Source of the DNA: Desulfobacteraceae bacterium
GTDB taxonomy: Bacteria > Desulfobacterota > Desulfobacteria > Desulfobacterales > Desulfosalsimonadaceae
Assembly (NCBI GenBank): GCA_014237465.1
Contig: JABZFM010000017.1
Location: 1 to 64,000 of the forward strand
Length of the DNA stretch: 64,000 nucleotides
Reading direction: 5' to 3'
Part shown: positions 212-63,873 of the stretch, one piece after another
How the letters are laid out: the number at the start of each line of letters is the position of its first letter
Position numbering within the stretch: the stretch's first letter is position 1
The notes under the pieces: generated by a model
What the model was told of the DNA's origin: nothing
Database searches by the model: none
The model's input: only the letters and a program-made list of their open reading frames with translations
Program-made: the position numbers and the translations under genes

Positions 212-1135
212 CTACAGCATTTTCCGGTAAGACTGAAATCGGGTTACAACCGTGGCCATCTGTGCGGCATCCGGATATTTTTTCTGCCATTGATAACATT
301 TTTCAAGCCGGGATGACAGGGGTGGATGGGTTGAAAACCATGAGCCTTTGCTGGTGGCGGTGGCCTCTTTTTGCTGCAGCATTTTCAGAACACGGATCAG
401 CCCATTGGGGTCATACCCGGTTCGGTAGGCAACCGCCATTGCAGATTCATCGGCTTCATATTCCATGCCTTTATCCAGTCCTTTATCAAAGAGCATGGTC
501 TGTAGACCGCCGACCATTTCCTGGTACTGTTTCCCCTGGTCCCCTTTCATGTTAATGGTACCAATCTTGGCGGCACTTTCAAAAAATTTAGCCCGTCGTA
601 CAGAGCTGAGGGCGTGTTTATGCGCCACATGAGCCACTTCATGGGACAAAACACAGGCCAGCTCCGATTCATCATTCATTCCCTTTACCAGTGACCCGCT
701 GACAAAAACGATGCCACCGGGACAGGAAAACGCGTTATAAATCGGCGTGTCCACGACCACAAAATAATAGGTGATATCGGGACGCATGGAATTTTGTGCC
801 ACCGCGTTGCCCAGAGTATTGACATATGTCTGGAGTTTTTTGTTTTTTACCGGAAGACCGTAACGCTGAAACCCTTCCAAAGCCAATGTCTCACCTATGG
901 TGAATTCGGACTTGTAATCAATGCCCTCGGCACTCTGGACAATGCCGGTTAAGCCTTCTAAGGCCTGTTTTGCTTTCTGGATATCGCTGTTTTGGCCGTC
1001 TGGATCAATGATTTTGAAAAGATCAAACGCATACGCCGGACATGAAAGGAACAGGGCAAAAGGACCTGCCAGTTTTAAAAAATTTCTTCGACTGGAGACT
1101 GAATTATTTGGGGAAATATCTTTTGGATTATTCAT
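212..1135 (-). CDS. Exported M48-family zinc metalloprotease with Tat-type signal
   Basis: Predicted zinc endopeptidase of family M48, probably acting in the periplasm on damaged or misassembled envelope proteins. The HEVAH zinc motif is at residues 165-169, and the third ligand is the first Glu of EYEAD (E225). The N-terminus carries SRRNFLK followed by a hydrophobic stretch ending in AYA, a good twin-arginine signal, which would mean export of the folded, metal-loaded enzyme. At 307 residues it is a normal length for the BepA/YfgC-like or Oma1-like periplasmic class, without TPRs. GAGAGG sits just before the ATG. The gene lies 22 nt downstream of an SH3 protein on the same strand and is probably co-transcribed with it. 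The M48 assignment is secure; the substrate is unknown. Confidence 0.88.
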   Translation of the reverse strand: MNNPKDISPNNSVSSRRNFLKLAGPFALFLSCPAYAFDLFKIIDPDGQNSDIQKAKQALEGLTGIVQSAEGIDYKSEFTIGETLALEGFQRYGLPVKNKKLQTYVNTLGNAVAQNSMRPDITYYFVVVDTPIYNAFSCPGGIVFVSGSLVKGMNDESELACVLSHEVAHVAHKHALSSVRRAKFFESAAKIGTINMKGDQGKQYQEMVGGLQTMLFDKGLDKGMEYEADESAMAVAYRTGYDPNGLIRVLKMLQQKEATATSKGSWFSTHPPLSSRLEKCYQWQKKYPDAAQMATVVTRFQSYRKML

Positions 1136-1157: not shown

Positions 1158-1685
1158 TTAATCAGCATATTCGCCGATTTTACCTTCTTTTAAAAACTGA
1201 TCAATCTCCTGGTTACTGGTCTTCAGTGATATTACGGAATCAAGCGCATCCTGGCTCTGCTGGGGCGTTCCGGTCGTTTCGGCATATTCCTTCGCTTCCG
1301 GTGACAGCCCTCTGATGCTTCGAGAAGAATCGGCCGCATCCGCGTTGATGTCACTGCCGGACAGTCCGCCGAGTAGTCCGCCAAGTCCTCCTTCGTCATC
1401 CCCGGCATCTTCAATTTCCGGTTCTTCTTCGGAAACTTTGCCCCGATAAATCCAGCCGGTCTCATTCAACAATGTCGTGACTTTATACCATCTGCCCTCA
1501 GAGACTACAAGGGTAAGGGCGGAACCGCGCTTCAGTTCGACAATAGTAGCAGAGGAACTGGAACAGTCGGATTTCAATTCAGCATTTTCAGAAGTGACAT
1601 ACAGTGTTGTGGCGGCAAAACAGACAGATAAAAGAAAAAATAGTAAAAACGTCAGAGTTGAGGAAAAAATAAGCGGTCGTTTCAT
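1158..1685 (-). CDS. Exported SH3b-domain protein
   Basis: A 175-residue protein with a clear signal peptide (hydrophobic residues 5-24, cleavage near CFA-A). One bacterial SH3 domain follows, from about residue 27 to 83 (TLYVTSENAELKSD to ETGWIYRGKVS). Next come an acidic/Gly-rich linker (GGLGGLLGGLSG) and a C-terminal segment (about 125-175) of the form SPEAKEYAETTGTPQQSQDA. SH3b domains of exported proteins usually bind peptidoglycan or partner peptides. The next gene on the strand is the M48 protease, so this may be its targeting or regulatory partner; that is inferred from order alone. It was probably co-transcribed with the CHAT operon originally, but a dispersed repeat now occupies the gap upstream. 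Confidence 0.75.
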   Translation of the reverse strand: MKRPLIFSSTLTFLLFFLLSVCFAATTLYVTSENAELKSDCSSSSATIVELKRGSALTLVVSEGRWYKVTTLLNETGWIYRGKVSEEEPEIEDAGDDEGGLGGLLGGLSGSDINADAADSSRSIRGLSPEAKEYAETTGTPQQSQDALDSVISLKTSNQEIDQFLKEGKIGEYAD

Positions 1686-1828: not shown

Positions 1829-4800
1829 TTAATAATAATCCCCCACCAGGGTAAACGCCCCCCAGTATCCGGGGTGGGGGTAACGCGTTTTTACATGGAG
1901 TGCTGCCTGCTTCAAGCAGTCGGCCTTGTTTTTGTTCATGTACATGCGATAAAAAGTTTTAATCAAAATCGCAGTGGATACATCACTGACCCGCCAGAGG
2001 CTTGACACGACCGTATGTGTTCCCGCAAAGAAGAATGACCGGTTAAGTCCGACAACATCATCTCCAGCGTTTATTTTGCCCAGTCCTGTCTGGCAGGCGC
2101 TTAAAAATACCATGTCCGCATTTATTTTCAGGCCGAAAATTTCACCTGCCTCTAAATTGCCATCGAAATCTGATTTTGTAAAGTTTTTATCTTTTGCCCC
2201 GGCAAGTTTAATAGCAGACAGCAGGGGATTTACCGGGTCAAATTCACCGTGGGAAGCGATATGGATGATGTCAAATCCGGATATGTTGTTAATCACCCAG
2301 TCTTCCGTCGCTTTTTCTCTTGTTAGAATAGTTACTTCCGGAAAGTTCCAGGAGATGGATCCGACTTCCTGTTCTGCAAATGGAAGATCTAAAATCGGGT
2401 CGCCCAGGTCCGGGTTTCCGATAGCAAGAACTCTGGGACTCCGGTAAGGGCGTGCAACCCGTCGACCTAATGTATACTCAAGTACGCCGGCGCTGGGAAC
2501 ATAAAACAAAGAGAATTGATCCAGGAGAAAGGAGTCCTCATTGTACAGCGTGGCAAAAGAAAGATAATGCAGCGACCCGTAAGGACTGATGCCAAGGGTA
2601 TAAACGCCCTCCAGTTGTGGCATTAGGGGTGCGAACAACTGGGCGTAAAGACCGGCGGCATGCTTTTCATAGGGCTCAAGGTTCTGGATGATTCGGCGAA
2701 ATTCTAATATCCGCTTTTCAAGTTCGATCCTGTCTGCGGGTATCCGGATCAGCTGCAGACGTTTTTCGTTAATTTCAATATCAGAACGCAAAACCCAGCA
2801 GAAAACTTCCTTTTCAAGGAGATAATAGGACAACAAAGCGGTTCCGGGTTCCAGATATTCCAGCAGTTTTTCCGTATCCACATGGGGAACGGATACCATT
2901 GACACCAGCTGCGGGTTTTGCAGCTGCATATCGAGCATCACGTTTTGAAGATCATGGTTCAGTTTTTCAATGGATTTTCTGTAAATATCTCGTTCTGCAA
3001 GGGCTGTGGACATTCCCAGCAACAACTCAGTTGTTTCAATTTCCGATTTTAAGATCTGCTGTTTTTTATAAAGTATGCTATCTGCTTCATCCGCTAACCC
3101 GATCTGATGATTGCCCAGAAGGTCAATAAAGTTCCTTGCACGGGAACGTTCGGCCATCTCAAAGGCCTGTTTTGGCTGTCCCTTATCTGCCAACAGTTTT
3201 ACCAGTGTTTCATAAACCGAAAGCTTATTTGAGATAAAGTTTTCCTTGAGCTCTTTGACTTTTATGTCAGACCGGAGCTGTTCAATCACATCCACGGATT
3301 TTCGGAGCAGTTTTTCAGCAGCGTCAAGATCATTATAAAATATGATCTGGATTCTTGCCAGGCCGAACAGAGCACGCCATTGAGTCTCTTTAATCAGCAT
3401 AGATTCGGAAAGTTCCAGCGCGGTTTGAAAAGCAGCTTGCGAGCCTTTATAATCTTTTAAAACTAACAGCGCGTCACCTTTTCCGAGAATTGCCTTGGCT
3501 GCATTAATGCGGTTGCCGATGGCAGTAGAAATCGAATATGCCTGATCAAACAGCTCTGCAGCTGTTACCGGCTGATCGAGTTTCAGGTATGTCAGTCCTT
3601 TATTTCTGTAATCATAGGCCAGTCCCCATTTTGAATCAATCGAAGTGTCAATGGAAATTGCCTGTTCAAATGTTTCCAGGGCTTTTTCATAATTACCCAT
3701 GTCCCGGAATATGAGTCCCACGTTATTGAGTGTTGAGGCGATTTCATCTTTTCGTATTTTCAGGGCTGCGGCATCGGTTAATGCATTGTTCAGTGCTTCG
3801 AGCGCCTTATCATAATCCCCCAAGGTCCACCAGATCAGGCCTTCGGTATTGAGTGATATGACCTGCATGAGCGGTAAATCCTGTTCCTGTGAAATCGTAT
3901 AACATTGCCGTTGGAGACGGAATGCTTCTTCGTATCTTCCCTGGAACCATGAATTGTTCGCCTGTTCAATCAGAATTTTGACTTTAATCATTAACTGCGC
4001 GGGCGCTTTTGAGCTAATCAGTTCCAGACTTTCAGTGTAATAGCGGTCCGCAGCAGTAAAATTTCCCAGCAGACGATAACATCGACCGATGTTTAGTTTT
4101 GATTCAGCAATTTTTTCAAAATCCGCGGACGCCGTATAAATTTCCAGGGCCTTTTCATAATTTAATATGGCCGTGGCATACTGGTTTAAGCGCAAGTCAT
4201 AGACCCGGCCGATGTTCAGATATTGTTCCCCCATCAGTTCAGATTGGTTTAAAGTCCGGCTCAGGTCTACCGCGGTTTTAAAACGGCTTAAAGCGGTTTC
4301 ATAATTTGTCGCATTTTCCAGGACAATGCCCAGATCCATGAAGGCACGGATCAGGTCTTCATCAGGCGGCAATTGGGACATAATGTGAACAGCGCTTTCG
4401 ATAACGGGAATGGCCTTTTCATAATTATCTTTTTTGGAATACATCAACCCCAGCCGCAGAAGGGCATCGGCATGCGCTTTTGACTCCGGTTCCATGTTTT
4501 TTTGAAGATGGACAAGTTCTTTTGAAAAATTTAACGCTGCCTCATTATTGCCGGACCGGTAGGCACTTTCACGGGCGAATTTATATAAATCCGGCAGGTA
4601 TCGGCTGTATTTTGAAATTTCGCTGGCAACGGAAATAGCATTTTCAAACATCACCAGGGCGGATACATAATTTGCCTGATCAAAATTTGATCTTCCGGTT
4701 TTGACATATTTGATGAAATTGTTTTTGGCGAATTTGATGGATTCTTTGCCCGTCATTCCCTGATACCCAAGGTACAGGAGCCTGTCAGTTTTAATGTCAG

Positions 4801-7800
4801 AAGGTTTAAAATTTTGAGGCATGGTTTCTGTTTCAGGTATCAAAGTAAGTGCAGCTGTATTTAGCGCGTCAATACCTGACGTTTCAGGATATAATGTAAG
4901 AAGGTCAGGAACCAATTTCGTACTGTCGGCCGTATCATTAATAAAAATAATCCCCGGACATCCATATATGGAAAACAGGTGTCCGACGAGATACACATTA
5001 TTCGTGTAATTTCCCGAGAGAATAGATAATGAAAGGTTGGATGTCTTAGCCAGGAGTTTTTCTAGCTTAACTCGTGTGTCAGGGTCTGGATATACGGCAA
5101 AAAAACGACTGGCGATTTCTCCGGGTTCAGTGGGAACCGTTGATACCGCCTTCGGACCACTGGAAATGAGCAGTGTATTGATGGATGAAAATTCATTCCG
5201 GAAATGGTCTTCATCGTTTTCTGTCACCGACGCATAGGATTTGATATTATATTGTTGGGCCACCAGGTCGGCAAACGGAATCTGCGGCACTGAGAGTAAT
5301 TTTTGTTTAAACGGTTTCCGGCTGTTTATACATCTTGCCAGATGCTTTGCGCTTAATGCGTAAGGGTATGTGATTTCAAGATTCAGAGCAGGGGGATTTT
5401 CATTGGCAATATAGGGGGTTATCCAGTCGATTTCTTCGTCAATTTTTTCTTTTAATGTATCGGTATTTTCTGCGGTAAATCCGGTGATTTCTTCTTTGGT
5501 GATCAGAAAAGCAGCATAGGGTGAATTTTTGATGCCGGTATGGAAAATCCTTGCCACCGCATCATCATCTGAAAGCGCATCCATCAGATCCATGGCCTCA
5601 AACGGTTCCGGCGACATCAATGCAATAAAATCAGGTGGAGATGAAACTGGCCGGGCGTAATATGCGTCTTCGGCAAGCCCCTTGTATCTGCTGACCAGGG
5701 AATGATATTTTTGTTCAAGTACCCGGGCCAGATTCCGGGTTTTTTCATCATTAATATTTTTATCAGACAATTTTATGCTCACATTCGCCAGTGCATCTGC
5801 CGTTTCTTCAATTTTTACAGTCATCGACATGAGGAGGACAGCAAGGTCCTGTATGTCACTATTCCGGATGTCTTTAAACGGACCCGGAAGATTTTCATTG
5901 TCTGCCCCCATTTGATTAGCAAGCAGAACCTGTTCATTATCAAGGCGTTCTTGAAGAAAGGGCACGTTGTCTTCATCTGCTTGTTTGATTTCTTTTTTCA
6001 GTAATCGGATCCGTTCAAGCCGGGGATACAATTTTAAGAAAAATGATTGTTCATGCTTGCTTTGCGGACGGACAAAGGGTGCCAGGCGATTGAAACGTTC
6101 CAGTTCGGAAATCTTTTCCGCCAGGTTTAATGCGGCTTCGGTGTTTTTACTTTCCAGTTTTTTGAAAATCAGTGATCCAAAACTACGGATAATCTCCAAG
6201 GGTTCGCATCCGGCACGGGATATGGGAACCGTTTCCAGCACATTCAGCGCATCTGTCAGTTGACCAAGCCCAGCTAATGCCCGCCATTCTAAATCCGGGA
6301 AAATACCGGTTTTCGAAGTTTTAAGTGCATGTTGATAATACCGTATTGCGGTTTCCTCGTCTCCGAGTGCGCGCGCAACAACAGCCATATTCAAGTATAG
6401 CGAGGTGCCGGTTTCAAGCTGTTTCCGGCTGACTTGAGAGACGTTATTTTCAAACAGTTCCAATCCCCGGGTGAAGTGACTCACCGCATGCTGCTGCAGG
6501 ATAATTTTATGTACAGCTGACGATAATTCTTTGCTGTATTGCTCTGCAGCATTTGAATAAAATACCCCAAGGATATTGTGATATTCTATCAGGATCGTAG
6601 AACCGGTAATATTTGTATTTTTTGATAGAAGGTCTGCTGTTTGATTGTCGAATTTCTGCAGACGCCTCATTTGTGCATCGGGTAACCCGGTTTTTGTTTG
6701 CAGATCAAATATTTTTTGTCCCACAGATGTCATGTTTGTAATATTTGCGGCAGCGCTCGCCGGGTTTTCCATTTTCAGGCAGAGTTCTGCGGAAAAAGCG
6801 AATTTTTCAAATGCGTTCAGGTAATTACCCACTGCATTATCTAAAAGAGCGGCGCGATGATACAGCAGGGAGACACCATAACGATCTTTTTCATTAACGG
6901 ATTCCGGGTCAGGGTATTGCCTGAGCTGTTTTACAAGTTCATTCCGTGATGTTTCCAGATGACCCAGCTCCAGCTGAATCCGGGAAATGAAAGTTTCGGC
7001 AAGCCTTTTTTCCTGGGTCGCAGAAAATCCTTTGGCGGCCTGTGTTGCAGAAGACGCGTCCAGTGAAGTAGATACGGAAATATCAATTAACGCTCTTTTG
7101 GGTTTTTCCGCAGGTTCCGGCACACTGTATTGATCGATCAGGGAAAGCACCTGATCGAAGTCCTTTGAAGCTTTTTTCAGCAGTTTGATATGCTGACCAC
7201 TGGTAACGCTTTTAGCCTGCTGATACGTATTATAGGCGACCGAACGCCTGTTCCGGGCCAGGTTTTCATTGTTACCGGTTTTCTCATTTAATGAAAATAC
7301 TTTTTCAAATATTTCAGTTGCCTTATCCCATTCGCTATTGTCCTGATAAGCCAGTCCCAAACGGTCTGAAATTTCAATTTTTAGTTCAATCAGGCGTTCC
7401 GGAAAATCCAGCGCTTTTGTGATCTGCCGGGTTAAATTCAAAAGATTCTGACGCGGATTGTCAATGGGCAGGTTTCCGGGCTTTTTTTCATTTACGGCAT
7501 TCAGTTTCCTGGCCAGCTTTAATGCGGATTTATTCAGCTTTTCCTGATCATAGACAAGGAACAGCATTTTTTCCTTATATGACTGCCACTGTTCTGAAGG
7601 GGGAGGAGATGTGTTTTCGCTAAGATCCGCCACCTTAAGATTTTGTTCGGACTGCTCCCGGGCGATTTTTAAGGCGAACTCTTTTGTTTCCGGTGTGTTG
7701 ATGGCCGGATCAATAATCCGGTCTTTCAAGTACCGGTTCAACCGATCAAACGCACGAGACGGTGCTAATGGATCTATATGACCGTCAATGAGTTCGATCG

Positions 7801-10456
7801 CTTTTTGGAAAGCGGTAATTGTGTTTTTAATATCGTTATCCTGAAACGCGCACTCCCCAAACCGTTTGTAGAAAACGATCTGTGTGTTCGGATCAGCAAA
7901 TTCAATATTTCTTTCCTGGCGCCGGGAATAAAATTTAAATGCCTTTTCGTATTGACCCATCAAATAATATATATTTCCCAGGTTTAACTCCAGGTTTGCG
8001 GCATTCTCGGTATTGTTGACATGATCGTTTAAAAAATATGCCTTTTGATAAGACATTAAAGCCTGTTCCAGCTTTTTTGTTTCACCATACACGGTTTCAA
8101 GAACTTCAAATACGTATCCAAGCGTCTGGTGAAAATACTCGACACTGCTGTTGAAACGGATCGATTTTTCAATCAGCTTTTTTGCTTCCTTTGCGGAATC
8201 AAAATTATTTAAGTAAGACAGGCACAGCCCGGTACAATAAAGCCAGACCGGATCATTAGGCGATGATTTCAGATTTTTACGGTATTTATAAAGGACGTTT
8301 TCAATATCGCCGGTTACCGCAGCACATTTGATATACCCGCGATGGGCTTCGATAATCTGATCATCATAATCCAACAGTTCCTTGAACGTGCTGCGTGCGG
8401 AAGGAATTTCACCGAGCCGAAACAGAAATTCTCCGGCAGAAATGTTTTTGCGGATATACCCCAGGCGTGCCAGCTGATAAATCCGGTCCGAGGAATCCCA
8501 TAGACTGATTTCTGTTTCATAAAGATCAATGGCTTGGCGAAACTGTTCTTCACGAAAAAGAATTTCAGCTAAAGAGAAGCGGGCTGAGGCAGTCTGGGTT
8601 GTGAGCTCTGAAAATGAATCAATGACATTTTGATAGGCGGCTTTTGCCTGGACCAGTTGATCGGCTTCATAATACAGATCGCCAATGCGATTTAAGGCAC
8701 CCATGGAAAGCGGCGGGGCTGCAAACTGGTTTTCGATTGCCGTGAGATTGAGTTTTCGGATCTTTTCATTCAGATCCGCATAGGCAAAATCAGTCTGAAT
8801 CGTATCAATAATACGTTCCACTGCTCTGTCCACCCAGTTCCGCTGCTCCGGGTAATTGATCAGAATCAGACGGTATGTCTCTATCACTTTATTGTTTGTC
8901 ACGGTTTTAGCGTAAATTTGCGCTTTAAGAAACAAGGCCTGTGCTTTTTGAGACGTTTCTGCAGAATCGTCAGCAATCACTTCATCAAGCCAGTCAAGAG
9001 CTTTTGTCAAATCAGACAGGCTTTCGCTGCCTTTCAATAATATGGTGACACTTTCAATTCTGGATTCTGCTGCAATTGTCCCGGGATACTGGAGCGCGAT
9101 CTGGTCCAGACGGGTCAGGCTTTTTTCATAAATATTTTGTTTTTCCGAGGTCCGGACAGCTGATTCCGCGGCTGTTTGAAATTCAATACCAATTTGCTTT
9201 ATTTCCGCCAGCAGGGACTCGGGAAGAATCTCTTTATACGCACTGCGGATATACTGGTAAGCGGCCTGTGCTGATACAGGCAGGTCCATTTGATGAAATA
9301 TGCTGGCCACTTTATAACCGGCTTTTGCACATACGGCATGGTTATCGGAAAAATTTTCAATAACGTTGACATAAGCCAGCAAGGTCACATTCGGATCATA
9401 TGGAATCCGGTTTGCGATTTTTCCTGCTGCCAAAAACTGATCGTGGGGACTGTTTGCGTTGCGGATATATCCTTCTTCCGGAACAGACCAGCAGTTGCTG
9501 ACGCCGCCCTGGTTGGAGAGGAAATAAATCCTGCTTTTGGCGACAAACGGTTTGAAAGAAACAATATTTAAAGGGGTCACAGGATAGGGGATACTGTCGG
9601 GTGAATCGGTGCTGATTCTGCAGATAATTGAGTGATCTTCAGTGCTCAGTTTTTTATCATGATTGGTATCTGATCCGATCCTTGAAAAATAGAGCGTACG
9701 GCTGTCTGCCGCCCATTGCGGCAACATATCAATGGCTGGACCGCCGGTAATTTGACGGATGGTGTTGTCGCTCATATTCATGATGAAAATATCGCCGGAT
9801 GCGTCATTTCTAACAGATACAAAAGCCAGTCTGCGATTATCCGGAGACATGGCGCAGAACATGGCATCCCCACCGGTACTGAGGGATGCGGGGCGGAGGC
9901 CGCTTCTCTTCAGGTCAAGGACAGACAGCCGACGGAGTCGATTGCCGATGGCCTGATGAAAATATAGAAACCGGCCATCGGGTGAAAAACACGGACCGCC
10001 GTCTTCGGTCTTCCTGTCGGTCAGGCGGATGGGCTTTTCATTTACTTTTTTCAGGTCTAACAAATAGATGTCACCCTTAACGTCATAATCCGTGTCCACA
10101 TACGCCACATATCGTCCGTTAGCGGAAACTGCCGGGGATGATTTAACAGAAGGTCCGTCAGACAGCTTTTGGGGCAGTATCATAACAGACGGATCTGCCG
10201 ATGCCAGCCAGAGTGTTGTCGGTTTTGCGTCTCCGCTGATATAAGCAATATGGCGGCCATCTAATGAAACTGCCATGTCAAGGACCGGTTCCGTGCGGGA
10301 TGTTATCTGGATCGGGCGGTTGATGCTGTATGATTCCTCAGCAGATACCGCGGTTGCCGGACATAAATAGCCGGACAATATTATGGCGATCATCACTAAA
10401 CCAAAATATAAAGTATCCGAACGGATTAACCGGTTTAACAATCGGATTGGTTTCAT
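1829..10456 (-). CDS. Giant exported beta-propeller / TPR / CHAT-domain protein (caspase-like protease candidate)
   Basis: A 2875-residue multidomain protein. Residues about 16-40 form a signal peptide or signal anchor (LYFGLVMIAIILSGYL, then ATAVSA). Residues about 45-345 hold WD40-like/TolB-like (PD40) blades with repeated 'SPDGR..', 'VSANGRYVAYV' and 'MSPDNRRLAFVS' motifs. The long middle is tetratricopeptide repeats (G.Y..A...YE.AL patterns). The C-terminal 230 residues are a CHAT peptidase domain with the catalytic pair intact: His2736 in IASHGEF and Cys2788 in FLSACQTG. Residues about 1600-1870 look like a second CHAT domain without the catalytic His and Cys. CHAT enzymes are clan CD cysteine proteases that act on specific partner proteins. 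The ATG overlaps the TGA of the DUF1318 lipoprotein gene by 4 nt (ATGA), so translation is coupled. Partner and substrate are unknown. There is no frameshift across 8.6 kb, which argues for selection. Confidence 0.85.
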   Translation of the reverse strand: MKPIRLLNRLIRSDTLYFGLVMIAIILSGYLCPATAVSAEESYSINRPIQITSRTEPVLDMAVSLDGRHIAYISGDAKPTTLWLASADPSVMILPQKLSDGPSVKSSPAVSANGRYVAYVDTDYDVKGDIYLLDLKKVNEKPIRLTDRKTEDGGPCFSPDGRFLYFHQAIGNRLRRLSVLDLKRSGLRPASLSTGGDAMFCAMSPDNRRLAFVSVRNDASGDIFIMNMSDNTIRQITGGPAIDMLPQWAADSRTLYFSRIGSDTNHDKKLSTEDHSIICRISTDSPDSIPYPVTPLNIVSFKPFVAKSRIYFLSNQGGVSNCWSVPEEGYIRNANSPHDQFLAAGKIANRIPYDPNVTLLAYVNVIENFSDNHAVCAKAGYKVASIFHQMDLPVSAQAAYQYIRSAYKEILPESLLAEIKQIGIEFQTAAESAVRTSEKQNIYEKSLTRLDQIALQYPGTIAAESRIESVTILLKGSESLSDLTKALDWLDEVIADDSAETSQKAQALFLKAQIYAKTVTNNKVIETYRLILINYPEQRNWVDRAVERIIDTIQTDFAYADLNEKIRKLNLTAIENQFAAPPLSMGALNRIGDLYYEADQLVQAKAAYQNVIDSFSELTTQTASARFSLAEILFREEQFRQAIDLYETEISLWDSSDRIYQLARLGYIRKNISAGEFLFRLGEIPSARSTFKELLDYDDQIIEAHRGYIKCAAVTGDIENVLYKYRKNLKSSPNDPVWLYCTGLCLSYLNNFDSAKEAKKLIEKSIRFNSSVEYFHQTLGYVFEVLETVYGETKKLEQALMSYQKAYFLNDHVNNTENAANLELNLGNIYYLMGQYEKAFKFYSRRQERNIEFADPNTQIVFYKRFGECAFQDNDIKNTITAFQKAIELIDGHIDPLAPSRAFDRLNRYLKDRIIDPAINTPETKEFALKIAREQSEQNLKVADLSENTSPPPSEQWQSYKEKMLFLVYDQEKLNKSALKLARKLNAVNEKKPGNLPIDNPRQNLLNLTRQITKALDFPERLIELKIEISDRLGLAYQDNSEWDKATEIFEKVFSLNEKTGNNENLARNRRSVAYNTYQQAKSVTSGQHIKLLKKASKDFDQVLSLIDQYSVPEPAEKPKRALIDISVSTSLDASSATQAAKGFSATQEKRLAETFISRIQLELGHLETSRNELVKQLRQYPDPESVNEKDRYGVSLLYHRAALLDNAVGNYLNAFEKFAFSAELCLKMENPASAAANITNMTSVGQKIFDLQTKTGLPDAQMRRLQKFDNQTADLLSKNTNITGSTILIEYHNILGVFYSNAAEQYSKELSSAVHKIILQQHAVSHFTRGLELFENNVSQVSRKQLETGTSLYLNMAVVARALGDEETAIRYYQHALKTSKTGIFPDLEWRALAGLGQLTDALNVLETVPISRAGCEPLEIIRSFGSLIFKKLESKNTEAALNLAEKISELERFNRLAPFVRPQSKHEQSFFLKLYPRLERIRLLKKEIKQADEDNVPFLQERLDNEQVLLANQMGADNENLPGPFKDIRNSDIQDLAVLLMSMTVKIEETADALANVSIKLSDKNINDEKTRNLARVLEQKYHSLVSRYKGLAEDAYYARPVSSPPDFIALMSPEPFEAMDLMDALSDDDAVARIFHTGIKNSPYAAFLITKEEITGFTAENTDTLKEKIDEEIDWITPYIANENPPALNLEITYPYALSAKHLARCINSRKPFKQKLLSVPQIPFADLVAQQYNIKSYASVTENDEDHFRNEFSSINTLLISSGPKAVSTVPTEPGEIASRFFAVYPDPDTRVKLEKLLAKTSNLSLSILSGNYTNNVYLVGHLFSIYGCPGIIFINDTADSTKLVPDLLTLYPETSGIDALNTAALTLIPETETMPQNFKPSDIKTDRLLYLGYQGMTGKESIKFAKNNFIKYVKTGRSNFDQANYVSALVMFENAISVASEISKYSRYLPDLYKFARESAYRSGNNEAALNFSKELVHLQKNMEPESKAHADALLRLGLMYSKKDNYEKAIPVIESAVHIMSQLPPDEDLIRAFMDLGIVLENATNYETALSRFKTAVDLSRTLNQSELMGEQYLNIGRVYDLRLNQYATAILNYEKALEIYTASADFEKIAESKLNIGRCYRLLGNFTAADRYYTESLELISSKAPAQLMIKVKILIEQANNSWFQGRYEEAFRLQRQCYTISQEQDLPLMQVISLNTEGLIWWTLGDYDKALEALNNALTDAAALKIRKDEIASTLNNVGLIFRDMGNYEKALETFEQAISIDTSIDSKWGLAYDYRNKGLTYLKLDQPVTAAELFDQAYSISTAIGNRINAAKAILGKGDALLVLKDYKGSQAAFQTALELSESMLIKETQWRALFGLARIQIIFYNDLDAAEKLLRKSVDVIEQLRSDIKVKELKENFISNKLSVYETLVKLLADKGQPKQAFEMAERSRARNFIDLLGNHQIGLADEADSILYKKQQILKSEIETTELLLGMSTALAERDIYRKSIEKLNHDLQNVMLDMQLQNPQLVSMVSVPHVDTEKLLEYLEPGTALLSYYLLEKEVFCWVLRSDIEINEKRLQLIRIPADRIELEKRILEFRRIIQNLEPYEKHAAGLYAQLFAPLMPQLEGVYTLGISPYGSLHYLSFATLYNEDSFLLDQFSLFYVPSAGVLEYTLGRRVARPYRSPRVLAIGNPDLGDPILDLPFAEQEVGSISWNFPEVTILTREKATEDWVINNISGFDIIHIASHGEFDPVNPLLSAIKLAGAKDKNFTKSDFDGNLEAGEIFGLKINADMVFLSACQTGLGKINAGDDVVGLNRSFFFAGTHTVVSSLWRVSDVSTAILIKTFYRMYMNKNKADCLKQAALHVKTRYPHPGYWGAFTLVGDYY

Positions 10457-11046
10457 GAGGCTTCCTTTTTTGTCAGCCAGTTTCCCTCTGCATCCTGAAT
10501 TTTATCTCCAGGGTTTGCATTTTCCGCATTTATTTTAGCAAAAATTTTTCTCACTTCTGTCAGGTCGGATTCGCTCAGGTCTTCATTCATATAGATTACC
10601 CGAAGCATAATTTTTTCACGGGACTCGTTAATTTTTAAAATCACAAATTCAAATTCTTCAGCAGAATAGGTATCTGCAAAACTTTTGAGTTCATCCGGAA
10701 CATCTGTGCGGTTAATTGAAAAAGGTTCCACCAGTCCCTGATTGTTTTCACCCACCCAGCCCAGGTGTTTGAAAGTATCAAGATCATCTGCATGAAAATC
10801 GATAATCTGCATGGCATTGATGGTATCCTTGTACTCCCGGCTGTGCTCCGGCGGTCTGGTGATATTTCCGCTTGTATCCACTCCCCGGACGGATGCGGCC
10901 AGCAGCATTTGCGCGTCAAGGGAATTGTAGGAACCGAGCACCTGGTTTTCCAGCGCGGTCCGTTCACTGAGCATTTCTACTTTCACATCTGCCAGTGTAC
11001 ATCCGGCAAGCCCTGTTAAGATAAAAAAAATGAAGATTTTTTTCAT
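10453..11046 (-). CDS. DUF1318 (YdbL-like) lipoprotein
   Basis: A 197-residue predicted lipoprotein. The signal MKKIFIFFILTGLAGC has a lipobox (LAGC) with Cys16. The C-terminal 60 residues match the DUF1318/YdbL pattern (SDLTEVRKIFAKINAENANPGDKIQDAEGNWL in sequence, ending GNWLTKK), as in E. coli YdbL. In E. coli, ydbH-ynbE-ydbL encode an AsmA-like intermembrane bridge, a small lipoprotein partner and a periplasmic accessory. Here the DUF1318 protein is itself lipidated and is sandwiched 11 nt after an AsmA-like gene and overlapping (ATGA) the giant CHAT gene. I infer that it sits at the outer membrane and links the two neighbours. No separate YnbE-like gene is visible. Residues 17-130 match nothing I can name. 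Confidence 0.72.
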   Translation of the reverse strand: MKKIFIFFILTGLAGCTLADVKVEMLSERTALENQVLGSYNSLDAQMLLAASVRGVDTSGNITRPPEHSREYKDTINAMQIIDFHADDLDTFKHLGWVGENNQGLVEPFSINRTDVPDELKSFADTYSAEEFEFVILKINESREKIMLRVIYMNEDLSESDLTEVRKIFAKINAENANPGDKIQDAEGNWLTKKEAS

Positions 11047-11057
11047 GAGGATTTCCC

Positions 11058-14000
11058 TTATTCAAAATAAATGAAATTCGTTTTTTTGTTGATAAAGATA
11101 TTATCAGCGGAAATTTTTTGCAAAATTAAAATAATCGGTTTTAAACCGGAAAGAATGTCGTTAAACTTATCCATTCCCGGAACCTGTGCAATATTTAAAC
11201 GGCGGATGGCAGGCAGGGAAATATCTATCCCTTTGATCCCAACTTCTCCGTTTAAAGACAGAAAACCATCCTTAATCTTCAGGCGTATTTGCTTTGGGGA
11301 TCCCGCTTTTAAAATCCGACGCTGGGTGACGATTGCTTCGTTGTTTTCATATGGGTCCAGGGCATATAAGAGCCTTTCAAGAGACCTTGAGCCGATACTG
11401 GTAAATTCAACCGTAATGGCTGCATTTTCCAGCATGGTTTGAAGCTCGTCGGTGACGGGAAAGTCGGCATAGAGTGAGCCGCTGATGTCTGCTTCCGAAT
11501 AATCGCTTTGGGAAAAAGCTTCCGGAAATATTTCAGCAGTATTTATTCCGGAAAAGGTTAATGCCGTGTTTACGTAAAATTCCTGCTGTTCGACAAACAG
11601 GGAAACAGATCCGTTCATGGTTCCGCCCAGCAGGTTAAACTGAAAATAATCCAGGTTCGGCAGTCCGTTTTTTAAATTCAGCATTACCATGGATTCTCCA
11701 ATGGTAAGCGGGAAAGGGGCGGCGGCAATGTCTGCTTTTTGAATTGATATTTCCGGATCAGGATTCATCCGTTCATGCAAAAGGCGGATGTGACGAAAAA
11801 TATCGGCATTTTCGCTAAATGACGTTGTTTCCAATACTGATTTGATCACATTCATGGAAAGGGCAGGCAAATTCGATACAGGAACTTGCCGGTTGGCAGA
11901 TTGAATCTGATATGATTTTGAAAAATCAATGTTTGTATTAATTTTTTCAACGTCAATGGTATTGGGCATCATAAAGTTCAAGCTGTTGGCAGATAGTGAA
12001 AAACCGCCATCAATCGATTGATCAGGTACCAGGTGAAATTCAAGTCCGGCTGCGATTTGACCGTCAATGTCTGTTCCGGACAGACCGGGCAGCCCCAAAT
12101 TCTTAAACGTCCTGCAGTCCGGGATATTTACATTGGCAGTAATTTGTGCGCCCATATCTGAAATCCACAGGGGAAGTTCGGGCAATGGAGATCGGGTGAT
12201 AATCCGGTCCAGGCCGTCAATTGTCGCATCAATAGTTTCGTGAATACCTGACGGAAGAACGGAAAATTCCTGGTAAAGTCTAATCGATTCAGCATAATCA
12301 TGACTACCGGATAATGAAAAATCAACGGAAATCGGCTTGTCAGGATTTACGGCCGGCAAACCCTCTATGGAACCGGCTATAATATAACTGTCTAGATTAC
12401 CTTTGCCGCTTGTTCCGTTGAGTTCATACGCCAGTAAAGGGCTGGCTGTGATGGATCCAATAATGAAGTTGTTTTTATCTGTTTGGACAATTTCAATGCG
12501 TCCTTTATCAGCGAGGATGCCGAGCTTCACATTATCAATAAACCCAATATTGTCTGTAAATTGCATGTTTTTGAGCGCATCCAGTTCGCTTGCATCCGGT
12601 CTGCGTCCGGCAGCATTTAAGTGAATATTTAAATTTCCGCCGCCGGAAATGCCGGCCAGAAACTGGGGAGGTATTTTCTTTGTCAGCGCATTAAGGTCTG
12701 AATTGATTTTTATATCCGCGCTAAAAGACGTATTTCCGGTATCAACGGTACTGGCATCCATTGTTATGGAAACAGCATCTTCTGCGGTCATGCGAGCAAT
12801 AAAATTTTTAATATCTATATTAAAAGGGTCAAGGCTTTTTAAAAATAATTCTTTTAATGTAAGATTAACAGAAGCAGCAGTTCGAACAGGGCCGATGTCT
12901 TTTTTCAGAACAGAAATTTGCGGTGTGCTGATCTTAAGATGATCCAGAGCCCCCTTGATGGAACCATCCGGCAGAATGTCAGCGCGGACATCTAAAGACT
13001 GCTCCAGGTCACTGATTTGAACCAGGTTCGGAATTTGAATCTGTTCGATCATCAGCTTATTGTTAAGCGATAAACTGCCTTCAATTCCGGCAAACGACTG
13101 ATCGGATTTTTGAATATTTACAGCTTCCGCGGTTAAATGGTCCAGACGAATCCCGGAAACAGATACAGATAGGGATTCACCTTGGTTAACCACTTCATCA
13201 ACTTTCACCGATAATTTGAAAGCTGCTGAGTCAGGAAACAGGTTGATAAGTTTTGCCTCAAGTTTATCAAGATTTAAACGAGTACCTGATACTTTCAGGG
13301 CGGCGTTGCCGTTTCTTTCACTAGTTAATACGATTCCCGGCAGCTGTATATCAAGACCGTCAAGGGCTATGTCAGTTTGTCCGTCAGGGACCAGGCCGTC
13401 TACCCGCAGTTCTTTTATCGATATTTTTGCTTTTGCATCTTGATTGTCCAGTACAAGTGATGACGGAATAAATGGTTGAACAAAGGAAGTGATTTCATTT
13501 AAATCAAGATAAAGTGGAGAAATGGCCATGTGGATTTCCCGGCCATCACTTTTTATCTGTTCAATACGGCCGGATGCATTTATATGGCTGTTTTCAAGTA
13601 TATTAATATCACCTGTTTCCAGTTCCAGCCTTTCGTTGTTTAAATCCATGATACCATTTAAATGAATGTTGAAATTCCCCGGGCCGATTGATTTTCCGTC
13701 AATGATTCTCCCGCAAACCTGAAGATCAGCAACGGTCAGCCGGGCATTAAATGCCATTGGATCTTCAGGGTGGGTGCCGGTAGCAGCAGTCAATTCTATC
13801 GTACCTTTAATATCTGTGGGAGACGGAAATTCAGGAATCAGGGGAACGGCAACTTCCATCAAAGCTGCCAGATCAACTCGGATTTCGCTCTTTATATCTG
13901 ATGCCGCCATATCCACACGAACATCAGTGACGATGCCGGGTAAATTGGCATCCAGACCGGCTAATAATCCATCAATATTTAAAGCACCATCAGCGTCAAA

Positions 14001-14732
14001 CAGGTTTTTTACAGATGCGACAAGGGTAGACCGGGGGATGGTCTGATCATTAACCTGAACATCCATCCCAATTGCCAGGTCCACGGGCGAGGTTTTTACA
14101 GACGGTGCCTTAAGCGTAATTTCAAGGTCTTTGACAATATATTTTTCCGATTTCACCTGGTCATCATAGAAGAGATTGATGCCTTTTAAACGGATGTCAG
14201 CAGATACATCTAATGGCAGAACAAACGGTTTTTTCTCTTTTTTGTCTTTCTTTTCGTCATCTGTTTTGCGTGGGGCAGGGGGCTTGTCTTCAGAAGATTT
14301 TTTTTTAGCAAGCGTTTCAATATTAAGGTGTCCGCTGCTGTCTTTAATAATATGGATATCCAGGTCTTTAAGCAAAAATTCAAGGTTTAATTCCCGGTGC
14401 AGCAGCCGTTTAACATTGATTTTGAGTTTGGTGTGTTCAAGGGATACCAGCGAATCTTCGGAGAAACCCGGTGAGTCCGGTATTAATAATTTACTTATGA
14501 GAATCCCGTCTTTCCATGACCAGTCTATTTTCTCAATACGGACAGGCCGATCCAGAGCATCTGAAATCTGACTTTGAATAAACTGATTGCTCCAGTCCGT
14601 GGAAACCGCGGTCGGCAAAAAAACAAGGATCAAAGATACCAGCAGAATCAATGAAATGAGGAAGATGGCGGAATATTTAAACAGCTTGATCAGCCATCTG
14701 AAAGTGCGGAATTTTTTTAATGACAGGGGCAT
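11058..14732 (-). CDS. AsmA/YdbH-like intermembrane bridge protein
   Basis: A 1224-residue protein with one N-terminal transmembrane segment (residues 19-40) after a basic start, then a long, mostly beta, repetitive periplasmic region. The first 120 residues have the AsmA/chorein-like signature: SDALDRPVRIEKIDWSW, then 'LEHTKLKINVKRLLHREL' style groove-forming strands. A low-complexity charged stretch (KKKSSEDKPPAPRKTDDEKKD, about 145-170) follows. The C-terminal 100 residues (LERLLYALDPYENNEAIV onward, ending in IFINKKTNFIYFE) resemble the end of YdbH-type proteins. AsmA-like proteins are hydrophobic-groove tubes that move phospholipid between inner and outer membrane. It is the first gene of the CHAT operon, 11 nt ahead of the DUF1318 lipoprotein gene. 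The AsmA superfamily call is solid; the YdbH subgroup rests partly on its neighbour. Confidence 0.8.
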   Translation of the reverse strand: MPLSLKKFRTFRWLIKLFKYSAIFLISLILLVSLILVFLPTAVSTDWSNQFIQSQISDALDRPVRIEKIDWSWKDGILISKLLIPDSPGFSEDSLVSLEHTKLKINVKRLLHRELNLEFLLKDLDIHIIKDSSGHLNIETLAKKKSSEDKPPAPRKTDDEKKDKKEKKPFVLPLDVSADIRLKGINLFYDDQVKSEKYIVKDLEITLKAPSVKTSPVDLAIGMDVQVNDQTIPRSTLVASVKNLFDADGALNIDGLLAGLDANLPGIVTDVRVDMAASDIKSEIRVDLAALMEVAVPLIPEFPSPTDIKGTIELTAATGTHPEDPMAFNARLTVADLQVCGRIIDGKSIGPGNFNIHLNGIMDLNNERLELETGDINILENSHINASGRIEQIKSDGREIHMAISPLYLDLNEITSFVQPFIPSSLVLDNQDAKAKISIKELRVDGLVPDGQTDIALDGLDIQLPGIVLTSERNGNAALKVSGTRLNLDKLEAKLINLFPDSAAFKLSVKVDEVVNQGESLSVSVSGIRLDHLTAEAVNIQKSDQSFAGIEGSLSLNNKLMIEQIQIPNLVQISDLEQSLDVRADILPDGSIKGALDHLKISTPQISVLKKDIGPVRTAASVNLTLKELFLKSLDPFNIDIKNFIARMTAEDAVSITMDASTVDTGNTSFSADIKINSDLNALTKKIPPQFLAGISGGGNLNIHLNAAGRRPDASELDALKNMQFTDNIGFIDNVKLGILADKGRIEIVQTDKNNFIIGSITASPLLAYELNGTSGKGNLDSYIIAGSIEGLPAVNPDKPISVDFSLSGSHDYAESIRLYQEFSVLPSGIHETIDATIDGLDRIITRSPLPELPLWISDMGAQITANVNIPDCRTFKNLGLPGLSGTDIDGQIAAGLEFHLVPDQSIDGGFSLSANSLNFMMPNTIDVEKINTNIDFSKSYQIQSANRQVPVSNLPALSMNVIKSVLETTSFSENADIFRHIRLLHERMNPDPEISIQKADIAAAPFPLTIGESMVMLNLKNGLPNLDYFQFNLLGGTMNGSVSLFVEQQEFYVNTALTFSGINTAEIFPEAFSQSDYSEADISGSLYADFPVTDELQTMLENAAITVEFTSIGSRSLERLLYALDPYENNEAIVTQRRILKAGSPKQIRLKIKDGFLSLNGEVGIKGIDISLPAIRRLNIAQVPGMDKFNDILSGLKPIILILQKISADNIFINKKTNFIYFE

Positions 14733-14994: not shown

Positions 14995-15729
14995 TCATCC
15001 TATGGGATGGATGCTGCGGGGAATCAGCATTGGGACCCTCCGCTGGTAATCCCGGTAGGCATCGCCGAAGGTCGCGAGAAGGTCCCGCTCCTCGAGGCGC
15101 GCGCCGATGATGACCCAAACGGTCCATAATATATTAAACACCAAACGGTCCGCGGTAATATCCGGGCATGACCAGATTATGACGATGGATAACAGGTAAA
15201 GCGGATGCCTCACGTACCGGTAAGGCCCGCGGATGGCCAACTGTTCCGGCGGCGGTGTCGTGCCGCGAAGATCATGAATAATCGAGTAAAACCCGAAAGG
15301 GTCGAACGGCACAATCGACATAGCCCCCCAGGCCAGCCCGGCGATTGAAAGGAAATAGGCCGCCTGTGGCAGCAACCGAAAAATCCCCCCAAGTGAAAGC
15401 ACCGTATACGTCGACTTCTGCCAGAAAACGAGCATCAGCACCAGTACCCCTCCGGACACGATGGTAAAAAAAATCCCGTGGTATTCGGCCCGGACAAACC
15501 GGACCAGTCGGTCCCGAAAGCCCTTTCTTAACATGACACTGTGCTGAAGGGGAAAGAGTAAAGCCAGAAAGGTGTCTATCGCGAGCTTTCCTGTTGTCCC
15601 CAAGCCGGTATGAATCAGTTCAAAAGATCCATAAAATAAAAATGCACCTAATGCCATCAGCGATACCTGGCCGATGATACAGGAAATCAGAATAATGGTG
15701 TAAGCCTTGATTGATCTTGAAAGACTCAT
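14995..15729 (-). CDS. Isoprenylcysteine carboxyl methyltransferase-like (ICMT/PEMT-type) membrane methyltransferase
   Basis: A multi-pass membrane protein with about five hydrophobic segments. The C-terminal half has the signature of the ICMT/PEMT/NnrU-type SAM-dependent methyltransferases: IRGPYRYVRHPLY, then EERDLLATFGDAYRDYQRRV. The substrate cannot be told from sequence. I place the start at the ATG at 15729, preceded by AAAGGTG about nine bases upstream. An in-frame ATG 69 bases further up (15798) has no convincing ribosome site and would give a charged, non-hydrophobic leader. The gene is visibly richer in G and C (runs such as GGCGGCGGTGTCGTGCCGCG) than either flank, which are very AT-rich, so it may be a recent acquisition. 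It shares no obvious pathway with its neighbours. Confidence 0.8.
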   Translation of the reverse strand: MSLSRSIKAYTIILISCIIGQVSLMALGAFLFYGSFELIHTGLGTTGKLAIDTFLALLFPLQHSVMLRKGFRDRLVRFVRAEYHGIFFTIVSGGVLVLMLVFWQKSTYTVLSLGGIFRLLPQAAYFLSIAGLAWGAMSIVPFDPFGFYSIIHDLRGTTPPPEQLAIRGPYRYVRHPLYLLSIVIIWSCPDITADRLVFNILWTVWVIIGARLEERDLLATFGDAYRDYQRRVPMLIPRSIHPIG

Positions 15730-16287
15730 GGCACGCACACCTTTATCTCTTCTTTGCCATTTTATAGCCCATTTTCTCCAGGTACCCACCCATGGCATAG
15801 GCTTAAGCCTGCTATTGACTCTTGATATAATTTTAAATAGGCCTAAATGGAATCACACCTTGATTATTATATTAAAAACAAGTTTTTATAACCCTTCATT
15901 TAATAAAAAATTATACCATAATAATTATTTGATTGGAAGAACTAATTAAATTAATTCTATTTTTTCAAGAAAACGATTCAAAAAGATAGAATTATAGGAC
16001 GTAAAACGGAATCGTATCTTTAGTTTTGAATTTTTCGCGGCTGGGCGGGGACAGATTAGATGATAAATCAGCCGTTAGCTGAACTTGCCGTCTGTGATTT
16101 ACATGGTGAGCGGGTTGCATGCTGATTATTTAAATCAAAAAATTGATCCCAAAATAATCCGTAAAATAATCCCTAAAATGAAATTTCTTGCCATACCAAT
16201 CAATAATTCGATAATATTATAAATTGTAAATTGTTTACAAAAGACTGAATAGAAACGCTCAATAATCAAATTTACAGGAGGTATAGC
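15730..16287. other. AT-rich intergenic region between divergent genes
   Basis: About 560 nt between the divergent methyltransferase and DUF2892 genes. It is very AT-rich apart from a short GC island near 16037-16060 (CGGCTGGGCGGGGACAG). A 10-nt direct repeat AAAATAATCC occurs twice around 16150-16170. No open frame with a plausible start, and no terminator hairpin, was seen. It should hold both promoters, but none matches consensus well enough to mark. Confidence 0.5.
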
Positions 16288-62775: not shown

Positions 62776-62804
62776 TTGACTTATCATATAGGTGAATTTA
62801 TTTA
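62776..62804 (+). promoter_or_regulatory. Candidate promoter for the cobalamin riboswitch operon
   Basis: TTGACT (62776-62781) and TATTTA (62799-62804) are 17 nt apart. A start near 62811 would put the first base right at the riboswitch 5' end. The -35 is good, the -10 weak. Confidence 0.4.
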
Positions 62805-62811
62805 TTTAATT

Positions 62812-62980
62812 AAATTGTTCGGGTGCTTTTTTAAAAGCATAATAGGGAACCCTGTGAAAATCAGGGACGGGCCCGCCGCTGTAATTGGGGATGAACGTCG
62901 CTTACTGCCACTGCAGAAAACTGCGGGAAGGCGCGACAAGTAAATTGATCCAAAAGTCAGAAGACCTGCTTGAACAATTT
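62812..62980 (+). promoter_or_regulatory. Cobalamin (AdoCbl) riboswitch
   Basis: The P1 stem is perfect: AAATTGTTC (62812-62820) pairs with GAACAATTT (62972-62980). Between them lie the conserved core strings GGGAACCCTGTGAAAATCAG, GGGCCCGCCGCTGTAA, CTGCCACTG and GGGAAGGCGC, and the B12-box-like AGTCAGAAGACCTGCT near the 3' side. The whole is 169 nt, a normal size. It should sense adenosylcobalamin and shut down the downstream genes when cobalamin is plentiful. Confidence 0.95.
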
Positions 62981-63028
62981 GACTGTTTTTCTCGGTAAAA
63001 AAAAAGTCATATGATCTGAAGATAAAAA

Positions 63029-63126: not shown

Positions 63127-63873
63127 ATGAAACGGTTTACTTTTTTAGTTTTTTTATTTTGTTCGTTTTTTATTATTGCAGGTGGTGTTGATGCGCAAAC
63201 AGCAGATTTTGAAGATTTGTCGCTTGATGTGGAAAGCTACTGGAACGGATCAGACGGTTCCGGTGGTTTTGTCAGCGGCGGTGTCGAGTTCAGCAATAAT
63301 TATAATTCAGACTGGTTTTCCTGGGACGGGTTTGCTTATTCAAATATAACAGACACAACAGCTGAAGGGTTTGGTGCGCAATATAATGTAATTACCGGCA
63401 GCGGGGCAGATGCCAGCGAAATATATTCGGTAGCATATATCAGTTCTTTTGCGGCAACTCCCCCCACCATAAGCCTTAACGAGGAACAGGTTATCTCCGG
63501 TGCTTATTTCACAAATAATAATTATGCCTTTTATTCAATGACCAATGGTGATGACTTTTCAAAAAAATTTACCGACGATGATTGGTTTAAGCTGACCATC
63601 ACAGGGTTTGATGCTGATGGGTCAGAAACCGGTAAAGTGGAATTTAATCTGGCTGATGGAACCAATATCGTTGATACCTGGACATGGGTTGATTTAAACG
63701 GACTGGGGGCAGTCAAGCAGCTGACATTTGGGGTAAGTTCAACGGATAACGGCGATTTTGGCATGAACACCCCGGCTTATTTTTGTATGGATAATTTTAA
63801 CAAAAAAGACAGCAGTGACGACAGCACCTGTTTTATTCATACGATGAAGTCTGAGTTTATATCCTGGCAATAA
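63127..63873 (+). CDS. Exported DUF4465 protein under cobalamin riboswitch control
   Basis: A 248-residue protein with a signal peptide (MKRFTFLVFLFCSFFIIAGG, cleavage before QTADF). The mature part has the DUF4465 pattern: FEDLSLDVESYWNGSDGSGGFVSGGVEFSN, WSGWSYSN-like WFSWDGFAYSNITD, and GAYFTNNNYAFYSM, KLTITGFDADG and VDTWTWVDLNGLGAVKQLTFGVSSTDNG. It ends with CFIHTMKSEF, a CFI tail motif also seen in the FN3/barrel fusion. DUF4465 proteins are frequently encoded beside TonB-dependent cobalamin receptors and behind cobalamin riboswitches; they may be surface cobalamin- or corrinoid-capture proteins. The AAGGAG ribosome site is strong. Function is inferred from context only. Confidence 0.85.
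   Translation: MKRFTFLVFLFCSFFIIAGGVDAQTADFEDLSLDVESYWNGSDGSGGFVSGGVEFSNNYNSDWFSWDGFAYSNITDTTAEGFGAQYNVITGSGADASEIYSVAYISSFAATPPTISLNEEQVISGAYFTNNNYAFYSMTNGDDFSKKFTDDDWFKLTITGFDADGSETGKVEFNLADGTNIVDTWTWVDLNGLGAVKQLTFGVSSTDNGDFGMNTPAYFCMDNFNKKDSSDDSTCFIHTMKSEFISWQ

Follow-up and report, generated by a model that had tools for sequence, protein, structure and literature searches.

A conserved five-gene cluster of Desulfobacterota encodes a predicted AsmA-type bridge together with an exported CHAT protein and an M48 metalloprotease

In Escherichia coli, YdbH works with the outer-membrane lipoprotein YnbE (PMC11784454, PMC12977461), and ydbH, ynbE and ydbL form one locus (PMC8593681). We analysed positions 1 to 64,000 of contig JABZFM010000017.1 from a Desulfobacteraceae bacterium (assembly GCA_014237465.1), a stretch of 64,000 nucleotides referred to below as the window. 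It carries five genes (the module) for an AsmA-like protein, a DUF1318 lipoprotein, a giant exported CHAT protein, an SH3 protein and an M48 metalloprotease. Like the E. coli locus, the module encodes an AsmA-type protein beside a DUF1318 protein, the family to which we take YdbL to belong, and a presumed outer-membrane lipoprotein partner. However, the DUF1318 protein is here itself a lipoprotein with a conserved N-terminus of its own and without a match to the YnbE family; the AsmA-like members match AsmA, DUF748 and YhdP, not YdbH; and the module has two proteases and an SH3 protein in addition.

The giant protein calls other systems to mind. In Csx29, CHAT1 is a pseudo-caspase and CHAT2 is active, with His and Cys (PMC10028731). 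Like this TPR-CHAT protein of type III-E CRISPR (Craspase), the module protein joins TPRs, a pseudo-CHAT and an active-type CHAT in one chain, here by predicted structure, but it is exported, about four times larger, carries a propeller, has its CHAT domains about 700 residues apart and is encoded with envelope partners. CRISPR-type families (the Cas7-11/Csx30 context) were absent from the 26 window proteins in a Pfam scan, and no genome search for them was made. Eukaryotic separase, a protease of clan CD, has a body of helical repeats and a second domain that resembles a protease. The module protein shares this build by prediction, but lies in a different compartment with different partners. 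The M48 protease finally resembles BepA, YcaL and LoiP in carrying HEXXH in the envelope, and differs from them in its Tat (twin-arginine translocation)-like signal, its pairing or fusion with SH3 and the lack of a TPR of its own.

Each component alone thus belongs to a known family. We judge the module to be new as a whole because each known system examined matches only one or two of its components. In a collection of 5.39 million open-access papers (subscription papers and preprints were not covered) our searches met with no description of the module; no paper names a CHAT domain together with AsmA, and DUF1318 was named only in work on hemp rhizosphere microbes. The first-pass annotation likewise knew of no described system with AsmA, DUF1318 and CHAT genes.

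The module and its parts are laid out as follows.
11058-14732, minus strand: AsmA-like protein, predicted bridge, 1224 amino acids; N-terminal helix, then nearly all beta-strand
10453-11046, minus strand: DUF1318 lipoprotein, 197 amino acids; lipobox LAGC; PF07027
10453-10456, minus strand: ATGA overlap of 4 nucleotides between the DUF1318 stop and the CHAT-protein start
1829-10456, minus strand: exported propeller/TPR/pseudo-CHAT/TPR/CHAT protein, 2875 amino acids; signal peptide by eye
9437-10339, minus strand: N-terminal beta-propeller region of the CHAT protein, residues 40-340; PD40 and TolB-like repeats
4742-5704, minus strand: hidden, probably degenerate CHAT/caspase-fold domain, residues 1585-1905 (AlphaFold, Foldseek, VIA-align)
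1838-2659, minus strand: predicted catalytic CHAT domain, residues 2600-2873, with His2736 and Cys2788; PF12770
1158-1685, minus strand: exported SH3 protein, 175 amino acids, with linker motif and C-terminal FLKEGKIGEYA tail; export signal by eye
1311-1322, minus strand: RSIR motif, SH3-protein residues 122-125, candidate recognition or cleavage site (alignment)
212-1135, minus strand: M48 zinc metalloprotease, 307 amino acids; Tat-like signal SRRNFLK (by eye), HEVAH motif; PF01435

The three minus-strand genes, the 11-nucleotide gap and the ATGA overlap described by the first-pass annotation were all borne out: AsmA and DUF1318 are 11 nucleotides apart, and DUF1318 and CHAT share the 4 nucleotides of ATGA. 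Its proposal that the three genes act as one unit is strongly supported by linkage and by the retention of CHAT elsewhere in the genome, but the unit proves to be a quintet with the SH3 and M48 genes, the second protease having been overlooked. The latter genes follow at distances of 143 nucleotides (CHAT-SH3) and 22 nucleotides (SH3-M48). In 76 of 112 loci (some genomes counted twice) an ATG or GTG in the CHAT frame overlaps the DUF1318 stop by 4 nucleotides, so translational coupling of the two genes is likely.

We searched 389 genomes of the class, including the source genome, and fetched the loci around all 43 genomes found to carry a DUF1318 protein. An AsmA ortholog lies upstream in 38 of these 43 loci and a CHAT ortholog downstream in 33, a number that includes a locus (L069) where only a 225-amino-acid piece is left. 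In loci that contain the CHAT domain and have at least 9.6 kb of downstream sequence, the SH3 gene comes next in 15/16, and with 10.3 kb the M48 gene is found in 15/16. A scan of titled genomes gave 187 relatives, and the titles of the best 80 name Desulfobacterales, Desulfovibrionales (Humidesulfovibrio, Desulfocurvus), Desulfuromonadales/Geobacteraceae, one Deferrisomatales and one Desulfobulbaceae metagenome-assembled genome. Among these 80, many of which are the same as the 43 so that the counts are not independent, AsmA lies upstream in 74 of the 77 with room for it. The propeller/CHAT protein follows DUF1318 in 70 of the 78 that have room downstream, and SH3 is present in 37 of 45 with a CHAT domain and 9.6 kb. 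A phylum-wide draw found the DUF1318 protein in 11/395 genomes, with nine loci new to the class search, although five of the loci (L251-L255) repeat contigs of the titled set. The CHAT protein adjoins DUF1318 in 8/9 phylum-draw loci, including the divergent L258, whose AsmA reaches only 113 bits; in L257 DUF1318 stands alone and a CHAT ortholog of 2689 amino acids, with 38% identity over the C-terminus, is encoded elsewhere in the genome.

The order AsmA-DUF1318-CHAT(-SH3-M48), whose conservation in Desulfobacterota the first-pass annotation had proposed to look for, therefore recurs across several orders and is not due to chance. Neither of the two outcomes that the first-pass annotation named as refuting its proposal has come about: the trio occurs in many relatives, sulfate- and iron-reducing bacteria, rather than in this genome only, and the CHAT orthologs are linked to the AsmA-DUF1318 pair in most loci and located elsewhere in the genome in the rest. 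As judged from gene order, AsmA, DUF1318, CHAT, SH3 and M48 are one conserved cluster.

Conserved order might still reflect descent alone, with neighbours that have no functional link, and the order has indeed been inherited in many lineages. Fisher p-values ignore shared descent and are inflated by it. More weight therefore falls on the joint absence of the genes and on their co-retention once dispersed. A search with the CHAT C-terminus separated orthologs (E at most 2.4e-114) from other CHAT proteins (E at least 1.4e-81); ortholog fragments at contig ends in G004 and G005 score lower owing to their length. Both DUF1318 and the CHAT ortholog were found in 41 of the 389 genomes, DUF1318 only in two, CHAT only in four (completeness 65-87%) and neither in 342. 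In the two genomes with DUF1318 only (G004, G265), the CHAT N-terminus adjoins DUF1318 at a contig end, and CHAT is traceable in all 43 DUF1318 genomes, in two as contig-end pieces and in one broken.

The two genes are not adjacent in 10/43 loci, and in 10/10 of these genomes CHAT is found elsewhere. For example, the 6.9-Mb single contig of G205 has DUF1318 at about 2.90, AsmA at about 3.24, CHAT at about 4.78 and SH3-M48 at about 5.16 Mb, all of them kept, and G254 (8,027,777 bases) has AsmA-DUF1318 at 7.51, CHAT at 0.41 and SH3-M48 at 1.56 Mb. The AsmA ortholog lies away from DUF1318 yet is present in G057, G205 and G324. The module AsmA was detected in 6/6 module genomes tested (once as a contig-end fragment) and in 0/14 module-less genomes, seven of which give weak AsmA-type matches of 45-62 bits. 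All 37 M48 orthologs at E 1e-40 occur in CHAT genomes, and SH3 orthologs of at least 100 bits were found in 31/291 genomes, 31/31 with a CHAT ortholog. All five genes are absent from a genome of the same genus that is 98% complete (G008). That the genes are retained in the ten genomes where they have scattered, and that close relatives lack them jointly, largely refutes descent without function, which we regard as very improbable. The five proteins very probably form one envelope system.

The AsmA-like protein of the window has no Pfam match at E 0.01, but the family can be traced through its relatives. Among 25 aligned members (Pfam, E ≤0.1; families PF05170, PF05359 and PF13116), 14 match AsmA, 14 DUF748 and 10 YhdP, with best E-values of 8e-11, 3.1e-16 and 4.2e-10, respectively. 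An AlphaFold model of residues 30-1224 (predicted local distance difference test, pLDDT, 83.5; predicted template modelling score, pTM, 0.58) consists of an N-terminal helix and a long antiparallel run of beta-strands, a shape that appears bridge-like in the model. ApoB100, LPD-3 and LptD lead its Foldseek matches, all with low template modelling (TM) scores; LPD-3 has an E-value of 1.4e-4, yet a TM score of about 0.1, and outer-membrane barrels also match. TamB, YhdP and VPS13 structures are absent from the 50 matches listed each by Foldseek and VIA. Because of the many beta-barrels among the matches, we did not use these rankings as proof of family. A PDB sequence search with the AsmA-like profile (E 0.1) found nothing. 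Two loops of low confidence were inspected. In the loop at about residues 948-990 (window 11763-11888), Leu-Ser 958-959 is invariant and Val962 nearly so; this loop is possibly a short docking motif or site. The loop at about residues 143-168, considered by eye as a CHAT target, has no conserved motif.

The DUF1318 protein matches PF07027 with 32.5 bits (cut-off 27), the single match of this family in the whole 5.09-Mb genome, and all 24 aligned members match it as well (E ≤0.1). A lipobox-like pattern is present in 130/132 loci (some genomes counted twice); LAGC itself was read by eye. The protein has a conserved N-terminal region, CTLADVKVEMLSERTALENQVLG. The N-terminal stretch CTLAxVxVEVxSERTALENQVLG lies beyond the PF07027 match. 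Its conservation looks higher than that of the DUF1318 domain, and a binding surface may be located there. The top PDB sequence match of the DUF1318 profile is YdbL (28oj), a weak one at E 0.097; the chaperone role of YdbL rests on the name of that entry, 'Probable chaperone-like protein YdbL'. Pfam gave no support to the idea of a YnbE-YdbL fusion, which remains a guess. A DUF1318 frame of 1250 amino acids in G675 proved to be an overlapping-frame artefact, the real open reading frame (ORF) there having 196 amino acids. We consider it fairly probable that the AsmA-like protein and the DUF1318 lipoprotein make up a lipid bridge.

In the giant protein of 2875 amino acids, Pfam recognizes PD40 propeller repeats, many TPRs and a C-terminal CHAT domain (PF12770, 184.1 bits, cut-off 24) that is the single match of this family in the source genome. 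Its catalytic dyad is invariant: His2736 in 80/80 rows and Cys2788 in the 79/79 rows with a residue there (CHAT matches below 500 bits and domains of up to 250 amino acids left out, identical sequences merged, the window protein possibly counted twice). A PDB sequence search with the CHAT profile (E 0.01) found nothing. AlphaFold predicts a second caspase/CHAT fold for residues 1585-1905 (pLDDT 82.9), a region without a Pfam family match. Craspase TPR-CHAT is its top Foldseek match (E 1.5e-6), and VIA-align superimposes 243 residues on separase (5fby) with Z 15.5, a root-mean-square deviation of 3.7 and 9% sequence identity. Structures of the transmembrane anti-sigma factor DdvA (8rot, 8rw5), known to us here from their PDB entries alone, also align with it (Z 12.5 and 12.7); CHAT-like folds thus exist in other membrane-linked regulators. 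The two strands that match the catalytic ones (assigned by eye) show no conserved Cys or His, with Cys in 2/75 rows and His in few. The model therefore suggests a degenerate pseudo-CHAT domain. By analogy, the pairing of a pseudo with an active CHAT would point to regulated, specific cleavage.

Alternatively, the giant protein might be a structural organizer of the bridge in the periplasm, with CHAT catalysis being unimportant. The bulk of the protein does lie outside both CHAT domains, of which the first is already degenerate. However, the dyad of the last CHAT domain is invariant in the relatives examined, and its mean column identity is 69%, versus 38% in the pseudo-CHAT, so that a pure scaffold seems unlikely to us. 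We rather favor the CHAT domain as an active protease within the envelope system, with a probability somewhat above even.

A few genomes contain disrupted CHAT genes. In G369 the gene is broken and lies in two distant places (L120:10271-11734, L069:11043-11720): a propeller remnant adjoins DUF1318, and the CHAT C-terminus stands in frame behind a PyrF-like start (by eye), followed by SH3-M48. This is either a rearrangement or an assembly error. The CHAT protein of G205 is encoded by two overlapping ORFs of 693 and 2164 amino acids (L118 oriented 5003-13575), and that of L221:5582-14121 by three ORFs; these splits are either real or frameshifts.

In the SH3 protein, whose match to its Pfam profile stays under the curated cut-off, a linker rich in Gly and Asp holds DSSRSIRGLSPEA. 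Of 45 distinct SH3 proteins that stand alone (ORFs shorter than 140 amino acids left out), 44 have the core [STG][SAG]RS[IMV]R, as do 3/3 more from genomes with scattered genes. The mean fraction of the top residue is 0.78 in the RSIR stretch versus 0.62 in the SH3 domain. Eight loci have SH3 and M48 fused; the titles name Desulfovibrionales or its genera for four of these loci and are broader for the others. A variant, SRS[ST]RS, is kept in the inter-domain linker of 7/9 distinct fusion sequences (two from one locus). In L122 (oriented 1606-2752) a tandem pair of SH3 proteins, each with RSIRG, precedes M48. Clan CD proteases often cleave after Arg. The SH3 protein is a candidate target of CHAT at RSIR, albeit a doubtful one.

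The M48 protein matches PF01435 with 102.3 bits, and its matches to the NCBIfam models of BepA and LoiP fall far below the cut-offs. An RRxF Tat motif was found by regular expression in 17/54 M48 ORFs, and others appear RRxL-type by eye; the assignment as a Tat signal thus varies among members. The likeness to BepA and LoiP, even under curated cut-offs, would fit a function in quality control instead of lipid control: the proteases and the SH3 protein would clear stalled outer-membrane proteins or lipoproteins, as BepA and YcaL do for LptD, and AsmA/DUF1318 would be a client or a co-regulated assembly factor. For E. coli, an action of both of these enzymes on LptD and on further stalled outer-membrane proteins is reported in PMC7950410. 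However, the more constant partner of CHAT is DUF1318 (41/45 genomes), not M48 (37/45), and a CHAT domain paired with a pseudo-CHAT is typical of specific regulatory proteases such as separase and Csx29, not of bulk degraders. Quality control has in our view a real but limited chance of being the right explanation.

The CHAT proteins treated in PMC10907252 and PMC10028731 are effectors of conflict or defence, and the one open-access paper found on CHAT together with tetratricopeptide, periplasm and protease concerned hypermutated conflict systems. One could imagine an envelope defence or suicide system in which attack on the bridge by a phage or antagonist triggers CHAT and the cell is killed. 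However, PADLOC gave only generic TPR models and no system-specific match for five proteins scanned, the partners resemble envelope-maintenance proteins, and the 20 other window proteins scanned have housekeeping-type domains without a recognised defence system. We regard this explanation as quite improbable.

The reading that we prefer is a lipid bridge from the inner to the outer membrane that is controlled by proteases of its own. It takes up the suggestion of the first-pass annotation that the CHAT protein may guard, sense or process the bridge, which stays a hypothesis. The AsmA-like protein would span the periplasm from the inner membrane, and the DUF1318 protein, as an outer-membrane lipoprotein, would complete a phospholipid bridge in the role that YnbE/YdbL have in E. 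coli. The giant protein would dock on the envelope machinery through its propeller and TPR coils. Its pseudo-CHAT may restrain or steer it, while the C-terminal CHAT would be the active Cys protease. Upon a signal, which might be a bridge that is faulty or unoccupied, CHAT would cut a partner, for which the SH3 protein is a better candidate than the bridge, with the conserved RSIR linker as putative site. Cleavage of SH3 might then release or activate the paired M48 metalloprotease, and the two proteases could jointly determine how much of the bridge is present or in which state it is. We advance a bridge under proteolytic control tentatively, with a chance somewhat below even, as transport, protease activity and target are all inferred. 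The complete two-protease periplasmic relay, in which the AsmA-DUF1318 bridge is monitored by a separase-like CHAT protein that cuts SH3 at RSIR and so frees or switches on M48, is rather unlikely to hold in full.

Several results weigh against this reading. The YdbH family is not matched among the 25 AsmA-like members, nor a YnbE-type Pfam family among the 24 DUF1318 members (both at E ≤0.1). TamB is found in 16/18 tested module genomes and in 15/18 without the module; being common to most module genomes, it implies that the module bridge is usually an additional and not the sole bridge. The second CHAT domain is invisible to sequence profiles, as hhalign of the hidden domain against the CHAT domain gives a probability of 1.4%. 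The conservation of RSIR would look the same if it were a binding site for another protein. The RSxR motif is missing in L258 and in the L213/L253 fusion, and G176 has another SH3 copy (L270) that bears ERSIRG as well. M48 is not obligatory, being absent at E 1e-40 from 8/45 CHAT genomes; two of these end at a contig edge, and others (e.g. L050) have sequence after CHAT. HEXXH is present in 48/54 M48 ORFs and missing in 6/54, some of them truncated, but truly lost in the fusions L201, L213 and L221 with a full-length domain. In such fusions M48 may thus be a non-catalytic partner.

Upstream of the AsmA-like gene, positions 14995-15798 encode a methyltransferase-like protein resembling MddA (methanethiol S-methyltransferase; 127 bits, cut-off 270). 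This gene probably lies outside the conserved cluster, since none of the 42 remaining loci has a homolog, although upstream sequence is short in several of them. Elsewhere in the window, two overlapping ORFs at 34776-39387 encode divergent Hsp70-like proteins, with DUF3731 as the C-terminus of the second one, and a cobalamin riboswitch (RF00174, 127.6 bits) occupies 62804-62987, upstream of an ORF at 63127.

The delivery of phospholipids to the outer membrane and the regulation of AsmA-type bridges are open questions. The module would connect a bridge of this type with proteases dedicated to it in several deltaproteobacterial/Desulfobacterota orders, as assigned by record titles, and it points to a specific catalytic Cys, a specific candidate site and a delimited set of partners. 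Within it, a protease of the caspase/separase type seems to serve a housekeeping function in bacteria. If true, the relay would represent caspase-type signalling in the maintenance of the bacterial envelope, outside immunity.

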